From an uncultured Kordia sp. (GTDB lineage: Bacteria > Bacteroidota > Bacteroidia > Flavobacteriales > Flavobacteriaceae), in contig NZ_CANLEA010000019.1 in the NCBI RefSeq assembly GCF_947489565.1, forward strand, positions 1 through 64,000: a stretch of 64,000 bases of DNA, in the 5' to 3' direction. Below are positions 38,968-42,718 of the stretch, one piece after another; the stretch's first letter is position 1; every line of letters begins with the position of its first letter. The position numbers and the translations under genes were made by a program. A model generated the notes under the pieces. It did no database searches, was not told the DNA's origin, and was given only the letters and a program-made list of their open reading frames with translations.

Positions 38968-39420
38968 TTACTTTCGCTTAAAATACTTTCGAGGAACCCA
39001 CAACATTCCAAAGCATTCTCCATCACCTTTCCCTAGGTGTTTGTGATGAATTTTATGTGCTCTTCGAACTCCTTTAGCATACCAATTGTTGGCATTGCGG
39101 AACATCTTGAAACGCTGATGAATAAAGATATCATGTACAATAAAATAGGCGAGTCCGTAAGCAAAAATACCAAGTCCAATAGGCAATCCTAACCAAAATA
39201 TCTCAAATTTCCACAGTAAAAAACAACCAATACTTACAATGGCGTAAAAGATGAAAAAAGCATCGTTACGTTCAAACCATGAATCGTGATCTTTGTGATG
39301 ATGATCTTTGTGTAGCGACCATAAAAAACCGTGCATTACGTACTTGTGCGTTGCCCAAGCCATGAATTCCATGATGCAAAAAGTTGCTAAAAAAGCGGTG
39401 ATCCAAATAAGGGTATTCAT
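38968..39420 (-). CDS. crtZ: Beta-carotene hydroxylase CrtZ-like
   Basis: 150 residues, four membrane helices. Di-iron histidine boxes: HKYVMH, HKDHHHKDH, HDIFIHQRF and HKIHHKHLG, the CrtZ arrangement. It adds 3-hydroxyls to beta-ionone rings, giving zeaxanthin from beta-carotene. Third gene of crtI-crtB-crtZ; starts 10 bases after crtB. A lycopene cyclase gene does not follow, so ring formation must be encoded elsewhere. Confidence 0.92.
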   Translation of the reverse strand: MNTLIWITAFLATFCIMEFMAWATHKYVMHGFLWSLHKDHHHKDHDSWFERNDAFFIFYAIVSIGCFLLWKFEIFWLGLPIGLGIFAYGLAYFIVHDIFIHQRFKMFRNANNWYAKGVRRAHKIHHKHLGKGDGECFGMLWVPRKYFKRK

Positions 39421-39430
39421 TGTTTTTAAT

Positions 39431-40270
39431 TTATATCAAGTTTAACTGATAATTTACATACGACTTTGCTAATAACGCCATTTTTTGATAATTCGGAATG
39501 CGAATTCGTGTGTTTTTAATTTTCTTAGAAGGCGTTCGCTTTAACTTATGTAATAATTTTGAATAATATTTATATGCTGTAAACACGCCAAACTTTGCTT
39601 CCATAGGTAATTTTGCAATTCCTTCCAGACCGAGTTTGAAATCGTGTTCAATTTCTGCTATAATTTTTTGTTTGGATGCTTCGTCCAAGTTTTTTAAATC
39701 AGCATCTGGGAAATACGTACGATCCAAATCTTCAAAATCTGCCTTTAAATCACGTAAAAAATTCACTTTCTGAAATGCTGAACCTAAAGACATCGCCGAA
39801 GACTTTAACTCTTCATATTTTTCCTCATTTCCTTTTACAAATACTTTCAAACACATCAAACCTACTACATCTGCCGAACCATAAATATATTCTTTATATT
39901 CTTCGTCTGTTAAATATACTTTTTTGTCTAAATCTTGACGCATACTTTTCATAAAAGCATCAATCAAGTGTATTGGAATGTCGTATTTATGAACCGTGTG
40001 TTGAAATGAATTTAAAATTGGATTCAAACTAATCTTATGTTCCATCGCCGAATCCCAATCTGCTTGAAACTTATCTAGCAAAAATTCTTTGTCGTACTCG
40101 TGAAAAGAATCTACGATTTCATCTGCAAAACGCACAAAACCATAAATATTATAAATGTCTTGTCGGATAGAAGGTGCTAACATTTTCGTCGCTAGTGAAA
40201 AAGACGTACTGTACGATTTCGTAACAAGCGTACTACAATTATAAGAAACAGAATCAAATAGTGCTTTCAT
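39431..40270 (-). CDS. crtB: Phytoene synthase CrtB
   Basis: 279 residues. Joins two geranylgeranyl diphosphates into phytoene. The first Asp-rich motif is in YGFVRFADEIVDSF (about 44-57), the second in NFLRDLKADFEDLDRTYFP (about 170-188). Soluble and membrane-associated. The start lies 17 bases inside the end of crtI, so the two are translationally coupled. Squalene synthase is the close alternative, but the operon decides. Confidence 0.95.
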   Translation of the reverse strand: MKALFDSVSYNCSTLVTKSYSTSFSLATKMLAPSIRQDIYNIYGFVRFADEIVDSFHEYDKEFLLDKFQADWDSAMEHKISLNPILNSFQHTVHKYDIPIHLIDAFMKSMRQDLDKKVYLTDEEYKEYIYGSADVVGLMCLKVFVKGNEEKYEELKSSAMSLGSAFQKVNFLRDLKADFEDLDRTYFPDADLKNLDEASKQKIIAEIEHDFKLGLEGIAKLPMEAKFGVFTAYKYYSKLLHKLKRTPSKKIKNTRIRIPNYQKMALLAKSYVNYQLNLI

Positions 40271-41738
40271 GAGTATTTGGTTGATGTTTGGTGATTAATT
40301 CGGCTACCAATTTCCCAGAAATTAACGCTGGAGGAACTCCAGGACCAGGAACTGTTAATTGACCAGTAAAATATAAGTTTGATACTTTTTTACTTTTCAA
40401 ATTAGGTCTTAAAAATGCAGTTTGAAGCAGCGTATTGGCCATTCCGTATGCATTTCCTTTATAGGAATTGTACTCTTTTACGAAGTCATTTACACAAAAG
40501 GACTCTTTAAAGATAACATGATTTAATATATTTTGTTGCGTAATTTCCTGAAATCTGTCCATAATAATGTCAAAATATTGATCACGGAGTTCAGGCGTAT
40601 CTTCCAAGCCTGGCGCAATAGGAATTAAAAAGAATCCTCCTTCTTTTCCTTCTGGCGCTGCTGCTGAATCTGTCATTGAAGGAAAGTTGGCGTAAAATAA
40701 AGGTTCTTTTGGCCAAGAGGCTTTATCGTAAATTACATGTGCATGCGCGTCAAAATCTACATCAAAAAACAAAGTATGATGCGATACATTTTCAATTTTT
40801 TTATCAAAACCTACATAAAATAGGAGTGAAGAAGGTGCAAATGTTTTCTTACTCCAATAATTTTCAGAGTATTGACGATATTTTGTATCTAACAAGGTTT
40901 CTGAATGGTGATAATCGGCTCCAGAAAGCACAATATCACCTTCATATTCGCCATGTTCAGTAAGTACTTTTGTGGCTTGTTTTCCTTCTACAGCAATCTT
41001 TACGACATTTTCATTCGTCTTAATAGTTACACCTAAGCTTTTTGCTAAGGTTTCCATTGCCTGAATAATGCTGTACATGCCGCCATCAGGATGCCAAGTT
41101 CCCAATCCGAAATCGGCATAATTCATAAAACTATAAAAGGAAGGTGTATCACTCGGTTTTGCTCCTAGAAATAATACAGGAAATTCTAATATCTTAATCA
41201 ATCGGTCATTCTTAAACTCTTTGCGAACATCACGTTTAATATTGCTAAAAAACTGACCAATCTTTTTAATTGTTTTCGTGTTGATTAATTCTAAAGGAGA
41301 AACTCCAGGTTTGTAAACCAAATCTTTGATGGCTACATTATAATTGTCTTCAGCATTTGAAATAAACTTTCGGAGTTTAGCACTGCTTCCTTTTTCTTCT
41401 TCTTCAAAAGCAGCACATATTTTTTCTAAAGTATCTTCAATACGAATGGAATCGTTTTTTCCAAAATACACTTCATATGCTGGATTGAGTTTCTCTAAAT
41501 GATAAAAGTCAGAAGGTTTGGTATTAAAATCGCTAAAAAAGCGCTCAAAAACATCTGGCATCCAATACCAAGAAGGTCCTAAATCAAAAGTAAATCCATC
41601 TCTTTTCAGTTGTCTAGCCCTGCCGCCAACGGTTGCGTTTTTTTCAAGGATAGTGACATCATAACCTGCTTGAGCTAAGTAACAAGAAGCAGATAAGGAG
41701 GAAAATCCAGAACCTATAATTATAGTTTTTAATTTCAT
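40254..41738 (-). CDS. crtI: Phytoene desaturase CrtI
   Basis: 494 residues. FAD-dependent desaturase with N-terminal dinucleotide site IIGSGFSSLSASCYLAQAG and VGGRARQLKRDGFTFDLGPSWY, and the C-terminal FAD segment NLYFTGQLTVPGPGVPPAL. It converts phytoene to lycopene. First gene of the operon; its own promoter (41740-41798) contains a dyad identical in layout to that before the MerR gene. Confidence 0.96.
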   Translation of the reverse strand: MKLKTIIIGSGFSSLSASCYLAQAGYDVTILEKNATVGGRARQLKRDGFTFDLGPSWYWMPDVFERFFSDFNTKPSDFYHLEKLNPAYEVYFGKNDSIRIEDTLEKICAAFEEEEKGSSAKLRKFISNAEDNYNVAIKDLVYKPGVSPLELINTKTIKKIGQFFSNIKRDVRKEFKNDRLIKILEFPVLFLGAKPSDTPSFYSFMNYADFGLGTWHPDGGMYSIIQAMETLAKSLGVTIKTNENVVKIAVEGKQATKVLTEHGEYEGDIVLSGADYHHSETLLDTKYRQYSENYWSKKTFAPSSLLFYVGFDKKIENVSHHTLFFDVDFDAHAHVIYDKASWPKEPLFYANFPSMTDSAAAPEGKEGGFFLIPIAPGLEDTPELRDQYFDIIMDRFQEITQQNILNHVIFKESFCVNDFVKEYNSYKGNAYGMANTLLQTAFLRPNLKSKKVSNLYFTGQLTVPGPGVPPALISGKLVAELITKHQPNTHESTI

Positions 41739-41739
41739 T

Positions 41740-41798
41740 GTTTAACAAATGTAGTAAAAAGTTAAACAAAAATAAAATTGAATTTTAGATTTCTTCAA
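41740..41798 (-). promoter_or_regulatory. crtI promoter with candidate MerR/CarH operator
   Basis: Minus strand: -33 TTG (41796-41798), a 21-base spacer, -7 TATTTTTG (41767-41774). Immediately downstream, over the expected transcript start, is the inverted repeat GTTTAAC (41740-41746) and GTTAAAC (41761-41767), arms starting 21 bases apart. The same arrangement is at 42684-42718. A repressor bound here would block crtI. Confidence 0.7.
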
Positions 41799-42681
41799 CT
41801 AAGTCAATGATAGACTTAAAAACCTTAAGATTTTTGTAGTTTTTTGTGTTCCTGACATGCTTAGATTGGTATCCAAGAAGCCATAAATGATTATTGTCAA
41901 GTCCTATCTGTTCATTAAACTCATCCAAGTAATCTTCAAGTTTATCTTCTGACGGTGTTACCGTAAAGTAAGAAATAAAATGCAATTCTGGAAAAAAGTT
42001 ATGCACATTTGTCAAGCTGTCTATCGGAATCGTTTGTCCAAGGTAGATGGTATGATAGCCTTTTAGCTGTAATTCGTAGTTTAAATACAACAACCCAATT
42101 TCGTGAATTTCATTCTCAGGTAAATACAAAACAAAAGTTTTGGTCTTATTTGATTTTTCTAAAGATTGAATACGTTCTGTATTTAGAATAATCTTCTGTT
42201 TTACTAGGCTTGAGATGAAATGTTCGTGTGCTGGATTTATGGTTTGTGTATGCCACAAGACACCTAATTCATTCAATAAAGGAATGAATGTGTCATAAAA
42301 AATCTCACGAAAAGATTTTTCGGCTAATAATTTATTGTAAGTATTATAGAAAAGGCTGTAATCAAAATTAAGCATTGATAGCTTAAAAGAATTCAATGCT
42401 TGGTTGTGGATATTTTTCTCAGTAGCAATCTCTCTGACAAGAATGTGAATCTTATCTTCAGGGATTTGAGCAATCTTTGAGATCTTATATCCGTTTTTAT
42501 AAAGTAATGTAATGTTGAGGAGTTTTTGTAAACTCTTTATGTCGTAAGTACGTATATTTGTATCTGTTCGCTCAGGTGCCAGTAAATCATATCTCTTTTC
42601 CCAAATACGAATAGTGTGTGCTTTGACTCCAGAGAGATTCTCCAAATCTTTTATACTAAACTTTGTTTTTACAGCATCCAT
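41785..42681 (-). CDS. MerR-family cobalamin-binding photoreceptor-like regulator (CarH/LitR type)
   Basis: 298 residues. N-terminal MerR helix-turn-helix (KDLENLSGVKAHTIRIWEKR) followed by a B12-binding module. All signature residues of CarH are here: Trp143-His144 and Glu153-His154 in VLWHTQTINPAHEHF (W-x9-EH, with His144 matching the upper axial ligand), and Glu191-x-His193-x-x-Gly196 (ENEIHEIGLLYL) for the lower ligand. GYHTIYLGQTIP follows as in CarH. In CarH, adenosylcobalamin-bound tetramers repress carotenoid genes in the dark and light breaks them. It lies directly upstream of crtI, with a shared dyad at both promoters. Confidence 0.9.
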   Translation of the reverse strand: MDAVKTKFSIKDLENLSGVKAHTIRIWEKRYDLLAPERTDTNIRTYDIKSLQKLLNITLLYKNGYKISKIAQIPEDKIHILVREIATEKNIHNQALNSFKLSMLNFDYSLFYNTYNKLLAEKSFREIFYDTFIPLLNELGVLWHTQTINPAHEHFISSLVKQKIILNTERIQSLEKSNKTKTFVLYLPENEIHEIGLLYLNYELQLKGYHTIYLGQTIPIDSLTNVHNFFPELHFISYFTVTPSEDKLEDYLDEFNEQIGLDNNHLWLLGYQSKHVRNTKNYKNLKVFKSIIDLVEEI

Positions 42682-42683
42682 TC

Positions 42684-42718
42684 GTTTATCCTTTTTCTAA
42701 ATAGCTTAAACAAAAATA
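42684..42718 (-). promoter_or_regulatory. MerR gene promoter with candidate autoregulatory operator
   Basis: TATTTTTG (-7 box, minus strand, 42711-42718) overlaps the dyad CTTAAAC (42705-42711) and GTTTATC (42684-42690). Arm starts are 21 bases apart exactly as at crtI, and 13 bases (TTAAACAAAAATA) are identical between the two promoters. No clear -33 TTG. Confidence 0.65.

Follow-up and report, generated by a model that had tools for sequence, protein, structure and literature searches.

In the CarH systems described so far, an oligomer built on AdoCbl holds the operator in darkness until light, by breaking the Co-C bond, frees the promoter (PMC8156234). In the operator of Thermus thermophilus CarH (TtCarH), an 11-bp direct repeat stands three times in tandem (PMC9304148, PMC8156234); for TtCarH and B. 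megaterium CarH together, the number of tandem repeats bound is given as three or four, with TnnACA cores, and the myxococcal operator design is described as plastic (PMC9304148). The class II LitR proteins of Pseudomonas (PplR/PmlR) are LOV-controlled, recognize the site TGTACA-N12-TGTACA, and have a light-induced regulon in which phrB, cryB, and folE stand alongside the gene of the regulator itself (PMC9758184). Among flavobacteria, the myxol cluster of Nonlabens spongiae starts with a MerR-family gene and contains crtI and crtB (PMC11855829), a role in light-regulated expression has been suggested for TSPO in Dokdonia (PMC8243069), and marine species carry photolyase clusters that are enriched in proteorhodopsin strains, with no regulator named in the excerpts (PMC5932025). 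A different mechanism may operate in Chryseobacterium lacus, where light induces crt genes although the study's authors report no genes of a car or lit operon (PMC7064467). Within the open-licence literature, represented here by excerpts of the sources, we found no paper on a flavobacterial CarH operator or photolyase regulon, which is weak evidence of absence.

The locus studied here lies in a 64-kb window, the whole stretch of Kordia DNA that was analysed, on contig C19 of a 6.42-Mb genome; with protein identities of 86-95%, Kordia species are its closest named relatives at the locus. A minus-strand run of four genes (carH-like, crtI, crtB, and a crtZ-type gene; Table 1) resembles the Nonlabens spongiae cluster in joining a MerR-family gene to crtI and crtB. 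The crtZ name is our assumption from position and histidine motifs, as the protein has no Pfam or NCBIfam match. We compared a set of 81 sequences, comprising the window and the best 80 of 128 relatives from a genome scan: crtI stands directly behind the regulator gene in all 80 of these best relatives, and the crtZ-type gene follows crtB in 79 of the 80, the contig of the remaining one stopping within crtI. We consider it quite probable that the MerR protein is a diverged CarH relative that serves as the dark repressor of a photoprotection regulon, with a CarH-like action on an inverted pair of half-sites.

Table 1. The carH-like locus, domains of its protein, and predicted operator sites in the genome that contains the window.
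Feature	Position	Strand	Basis or remark
carH-like gene	41785..42681	-	298 aa; Pfam, TtCarH/LitR match, AF2 model
crtI, phytoene desaturase (bifunctional phytoene/3,4-desaturase model)	40254..41738	-	NCBIfam NF058655, 741.5 bits (cut-off 640)
crtB, phytoene synthase type	39431..40270	-	Pfam SQS_PSY 6.8e-48
crtZ-type hydroxylase	38968..39420	-	position and histidine motifs
Operator dyad, carH promoter (predicted)	42684..42711	-	sense GTTTAAG-N14-GATAAAC
-7-type box TATTTTTG (TAnnTTTG), carH	42711..42718	-	last base common with dyad
Operator dyad, crtI promoter (predicted)	41740..41767	-	sense GTTTAAC-N14-GTTAAAC, 1 base before ATG
-7-type box TATTTTTG, crtI	41767..41774	-	last base common with dyad
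MerR winged helix	residues 8-73 of carH-like protein		recognition helix RIWEKRY, 25-31
B12-binding four-helix domain	residues 97-164 of carH-like protein		W143, E153, H154
Rossmann part of carH-like protein			E191-x-H193-x-x-G196
Site before TetR_C_23/ABC1/flavin-reductase/DUF2867/photolyase operon	window's genome
Site before folE/SDR/TspO/photolyase operon	window's genome		includes small gene labelled SRPBCC by eye
Site before fasciclin gene	window's genome
Site between divergent GDSL lipase and cryptochrome DASH + DPRP photolyase-related protein (PHR_C)	window's genome
Site before GLPGLI protein gene	window's genome
Site before GH9 secreted protein gene	window's genome
Sites before two secreted paralogues	window's genome, C8:72417 and C8:74268

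Sequence and model together identify the MerR protein as a diverged flavobacterial relative of CarH. Pfam recognizes MerR_1 (7.6e-14) and B12-binding_2 (1.3e-08), and among proteins of solved structure Thermus CarH/LitR is the nearest in sequence (E 2.5e-12). An AlphaFold (AF2) model with a pLDDT of 83.9 matches the TtCarH cobalamin domain over 194 residues (Z 20, rmsd 2.5 A, 18% identity), and Foldseek pairs the model with TtCarH entries at 1.2e-13. The recognition helix, RIWEKRY at residues 25-31, is of the RxWERRY type and is unchanged across 22 aligned sequences. Residues W143, E153, and H154 of the Wx9EH motif at the upper face of AdoCbl are invariant in 81/81 sequences, as are E191, H193, and G196 of the D/ExHx2G/P lower-ligand motif; the original prediction had listed W143-H144, E153-H154, and E191-x-H193-x-x-G196, all of which are present and align with TtCarH. 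The published CarH B12 motif goes on with SxT/V...GG (PMC9304148). In the carH-like proteins, the S/T region is kept only loosely and the GG element is degenerate, the position after G270 being R, H, Y, Q, or K in all 81. The broader claim that every ligand-type residue is kept thus holds for Wx9EH and ExHxxG and fails for the degenerate SxT/V and GG elements and for H144, which varies outside Kordia. We use the name "CarH-like" rather than CarH because the SxT/V and GG elements are degenerate and the protein scores 67.3 bits against an NCBIfam CarH equivalog cut-off of 400. Residue 144 is His in nine of the 81 sequences, all from Kordia, and Gln in the other 72; H144 aligns with the upper-ligand residue of light-exposed TtCarH, the His that follows the Wx9EH Trp (PMC9304148), so the light-state chemistry may differ among genera. 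Homology and fold suggest that the protein binds AdoCbl, and the window's genome encodes a PduO-type cobalamin adenosyltransferase that could supply it, along with one further B12-binding_2 match besides the carH-like protein.

The promoters of carH and crtI share an unusual layout. On the coding (minus) strand of both, TATTTTTG runs into the first arm of a dyad, and we take these TAnnTTTG boxes to be the Bacteroidota -7 promoter consensus. The 13 identical bases that had been reported for the two promoters, TTAAACAAAAATA, are confirmed at 41762-41774 and 42706-42718, and so is the distance of 21 bases between arm starts, both at crtI (GTTTAAC at 41740-41746, GTTAAAC at 41761-41767) and at carH (GTTTATC at 42684-42690, CTTAAAC at 42705-42711). 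The exact string GTTTAAC-N14-GTTAAAC occurs at a single place in the 6.42-Mb genome, before crtI, and its reversed control occurs nowhere. With exact spacing, the crtI dyad recurs in 13 of the 81 loci (the window, eight other Kordia, and four other Flavobacteriaceae), a fourteenth locus has it with one base extra, and in the remaining loci no dyad lies closer to crtI than 80 nt. The expected conservation at related crtI promoters is accordingly borne out in those 13 loci and fails in 68 of the 81, which have no exactly spaced crtI dyad of their own. As a feature of flavobacteria generally, the crtI dyad is rejected, being found in 13/81 loci only.

The carH promoters themselves are far more uniform. 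Arm 1 reads TTTGTT[TC]A in 77/81 of them, TAnnTTTG is present in 75/81, and TnnACA lies at exactly +23 in 70/81, compared with seven occurrences at all other offsets from 10 to 31; the window itself counts among the 11 misses, as its second arm ends in ACG. Both consensus arms thus contain a TnnACA half-site, in inverted orientation. Tandem 11-bp CarH repeats were also sought and are rejected, since an in-phase TnnACA (+12) is seen in one promoter of 81. In most non-Kordia loci, arm 2 overlaps the carH start codon (ATGAACA). Of the 69 carH genes in the set that encode Asn at the second codon, 68 use AAC, compared with 41% AAC elsewhere in these genes, where AAT is commoner; this bias points to a DNA signal within the reading frame, with the reservation that the carH sequences are related and p-values can serve as a rough guide only. 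Among 116 distinct dyads, whose arms are themselves set by the search pattern, the open positions are biased as well: ahead of arm 1, 72% have T at -7 and 67% have A at -6, and G or C is nearly absent at 8-10 and 17-19. The non-Kordia carH promoters also show a second conserved element, AA.TTT, often AAATTTTAAC, about 44-47 nt 5' of the dyad.

Genome-wide, we searched both strands for TTTGTTTAAY-N14-GWTAAACA with at most one mismatch, a count in which palindromic sites may appear twice. The pattern gave 130 matches against seven for the reversed control in 11 Kordia genomes (about 18-fold) and 485 against 48 in 120 Flavobacteriaceae genomes, one per genus. Looser scans were no better than control, with 22 against 17 at two mismatches and, for a slightly different pattern, 247 against 536 at three. 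Chance as the origin of the dyad is rejected, at up to one mismatch, by the enrichment over the reversed control and by the fixed gap: when exact arms were allowed a free gap of 8 to 24, a gap of 16 accounted for 75 of the 100 distinct sites listed from genomes with a close carH homologue. The matches also follow the regulator. At least two are present in 84 of the 87 genomes with a close carH homologue and in four of the 33 others (Fisher 3e-20, a count that takes in carH's own sites), while the reversed control has no association with carH presence (p 0.24). The 87 genomes average 5.26 matches, with one genome having none; the mean falls to 1.22 in the nine genomes with a distant homologue only and to 0.67 in the 24 without a homologue, 18 of which have zero. 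Ten of the 16 matches in this last group come from a single genome (G089), an assembly 81% complete in which no carH homologue was found. All 24 close-carH genomes with fully listed sites, a listing that covers genomes with matches only, have one or more sites elsewhere than at carH. Some dyads occur in pairs, separated by 40-45 bp, at fasciclin promoters (G000 C4:143407/143448, G054 C3:283200/283244, G059 C11:302754/302795) and at unannotated places (G044 C3:74807/74847, G027 C3:325308/325351, G005 C2:203869/203914), and such pairing could reflect cooperative binding by two oligomers.

Taken together, the co-occurrence with carH, the fixed gap, the constraint on a synonymous codon, and a tendency to change jointly with the recognition helix (see below) strongly support the dyad as the predicted operator of the carH-like protein, both at its own promoter and at crtI. 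The sites elsewhere in the genome define the predicted regulon. Among 30 loci listed in a search of the genus Kordia, 26 begin a regulon gene (crtI 8, with one site counted twice; DASH/GDSL 8; TetR-like 6; fasciclin 3; GLPGLI 1) and four lie elsewhere. In 20 hand-picked regions from other genera, sites precede the TetR-like operon (9), a hyp142/DUF2805 unit that runs on to folE or folE neighbours (7), fasciclin genes (5), crtI (2), and a GLPGLI gene (1), and four regions (L191, L194, L198, L200) have no regulon gene starting close behind the site. Several DNA-photorepair operons are thus predicted to be shut off in the dark alongside carH and the pigment genes. The original prediction, that the regulator acts on carotenoid synthesis and on itself, agrees with the dyads at both promoters and proves too narrow, as photolyase, cryptochrome, folE, TspO, and fasciclin units carry the site too; its central finding was correct, and understated. 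The small gene of the folE operon labelled SRPBCC has no family match. Three further observations concern individual sites. At the adjacent secreted paralogues (C8:72417 and C8:74268), near-identical dyads precede the gene starts by 24 nt. Two Kordia genomes (L142, L144) have an exact dyad some 185 nt upstream of a presumed panB ORF. The TetR_C_23 protein at the head of the photolyase operon (L115:5126-5785) has a TetR C-terminal domain and no Pfam TetR DNA-binding domain.

The operator letters vary in a way that can be set against the recognition helix. In seven of the nine genomes with a distant homologue only, the helix is RKWE[ST]RY, the other two having RIWERRY (G035) and RIWEQRY (G017), and in most of the nine, carH or the TetR-like gene is preceded by a TTTGTC[TAC]AA...GACA dyad. 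We scanned 41 loci (nine distant, 32 from other families), of which six lacked the motif pair, leaving 35. At up to two mismatches, the changed dyad stands upstream of five of eight RKWE[ST]RY proteins and the canonical dyad upstream of none, while the 27 proteins with other helices have four canonical dyads and no changed ones; reversed patterns and reversed sequences gave 0/35. Genome-wide, the changed dyad has 30 matches against 11 for the control in the seven RKWE genomes, half of the 30 in one genome (G076); in the remaining 32 it has 17 against 13. The diverged clade with RKWE[ST]RY in place of RIWEKRY thus appears mostly to use the mirrored dyad GTC...GAC, and in these sequences the operator letters tend to vary jointly with the recognition helix; the RKWE proteins possibly form a single clade, in which case this would be one evolutionary event. 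Outside the Flavobacteriaceae, the dyad before carH is often absent: at up to two mismatches, the canonical form is found in 3/26 loci with the motif pair, and six more loci lack the pair.

The two distant genomes with other helices behave differently. G017 has a canonical dyad with two mismatches before carH and zero matches of either kind at one mismatch. G035 has six canonical matches and no changed ones genome-wide, with a canonical dyad before the TetR-like gene, together with two TGTCTAAC arms before crtI and a mixed carH dyad that includes one TGTCCAA arm; it is either an intermediate or a blur. A strict one-to-one match of helix and operator is incompletely borne out, G035 being mixed. 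In the same genome, at L240:1920-1970 before crtI, the changed TGTCTAAC arms lie beside canonical TGTTTAA arms.

Could the dyad belong to another regulator, or to none? The TetR_C_23 protein might own it, with carH merely co-regulated, given that its C-terminal domain is of TetR type, that the dyad lies within 300 nt upstream of its gene in 17 of the 22 listed genomes that have it, and that changed dyads precede it too in G048, G050, and G076. We regard this as distinctly unlikely. Carriers of carH without a TetR-like match keep dyads away from carH (two in G082, one in G129, one in G088, two in G115), the operator letters track the CarH recognition helix in most cases, TnnACA is the known CarH half-site (PMC9304148), and Pfam finds no TetR DNA-binding domain in the candidate. 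Canonical counts in genomes with the TetR-like gene and no close carH give no clean argument, as the low ones (G017 0, G024 1, G048 0, G050 0, G069 1, G076 2) stem partly from changed letters, and G035 has six and G089 ten. That the conserved sequence is an extended -7 element followed by an A-rich translation start, with no operator at all, is highly improbable: arm 1 does overlap TAnnTTTG, and an A-rich stretch before ATG is typical of Bacteroidota starts, but such elements would leave aside the inverted symmetry with its fixed gap, the association with carH, the sites shared by divergent genes (GDSL/PHR_C), the synonymous constraint within the coding start, and the change, mirrored on the two arms, seen in another clade.

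A different question is whether a CarH-like repressor acts on the dyad without cobalamin control, through another ligand or with a partner, like CarA or class II LitR. The degenerate SxT/V and GG elements and the unconserved H144 would suit this, and class II LitR works via a LOV partner (PMC9758184). We nevertheless think it unlikely, as all 81 sequences keep the W, E, and H of Wx9EH together with the lower-ligand His and the whole cobalamin-domain fold is retained; moreover, CarA is described without the Wx9EH Trp (PMC9304148) and class II LitR without the Rossmann half (PMC9758184), unlike the carH-like proteins.

Returning to the AdoCbl-dependent repressor, we propose the following course of events, in which light response and repression are suggested by homology, fold, and operator position. 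In the dark, an AdoCbl-bound oligomer would sit on the 28-bp dyad, contacting two inverted TnnACA half-sites, and block transcription. With one base of its first arm in common with the -7 box and its second arm reaching the start codon, the dyad is placed where an occupying protein should prevent initiation, and this position would fit a repressor better than a MerR-type activator. In the light, the Co-C bond would be broken, the protein would leave the DNA, and the regulon would be expressed: carH, crtI(BZ), the TetR-like/ABC1/flavin-reductase/DUF2867/photolyase and folE/SDR/TspO/photolyase operons, cryptochrome-DASH/DPRP, and the fasciclins. As the operator also stands at the regulator's own gene, we expect light to raise the repressor too, which would reset the system in the dark. 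For the family as a whole, we find it reasonably likely that a CarH-related cobalamin photoreceptor is the Flavobacteriaceae-wide master dark repressor of photoprotection (carotenoids, several photolyases and cryptochromes, folE for pterin, TspO, and fasciclins) through one dyad, and that helix and operator have switched together from RIWE[KRQ]RY to RKWE[ST]RY and from GTTTAA to GTCTAA, mirrored in both arms.

If this is true, B12 supply and light would jointly control pigmentation and photorepair throughout a major family of heterotrophic marine bacteria, and the natural pairing of helix and operator would lend itself to recognition studies. The dyad already allows a regulon to be predicted from DNA alone, and it would represent a CarH-type operator whose half-sites are inverted, where those of known complexes stand in tandem.

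Compared with known systems, the Kordia protein has in common with TtCarH the MerR helix and B12 domains, the RxWE.RY recognition helix, the Wx9EH and ExHxxG motifs, the fold, and the TnnACA half-site; it differs in an identity of about 18% over the cobalamin domain, a degenerate rear B12 motif, and an inverted pair of half-sites at fixed spacing where TtCarH has tandem repeats. Photoregulation of crt genes by CarH, which we infer for Kordia, is the trait in common with the myxococcal CarH/CarA system, whose sites are mostly 11-bp repeats around -35, whereas the Kordia site is a strict dyad reaching from the -7 box as far as the start codon. Class II LitR was considered for the carH-like protein and rejected: its members have the four-helix B12 domain only, whereas the Kordia protein, by its model and fold match, also has the Rossmann half, and its site is unlike TGTACA-N12-TGTACA. 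The predicted Kordia regulon nevertheless resembles that of PplR/PmlR, which likewise unites photolyase, cryptochrome, and folE genes with the regulator's gene. CarH elsewhere governs carotenoid genes, whereas the predicted Kordia regulon takes in photorepair. What sets this CarH-like regulator apart from known CarH is its dyad operator together with that predicted regulon for photorepair.
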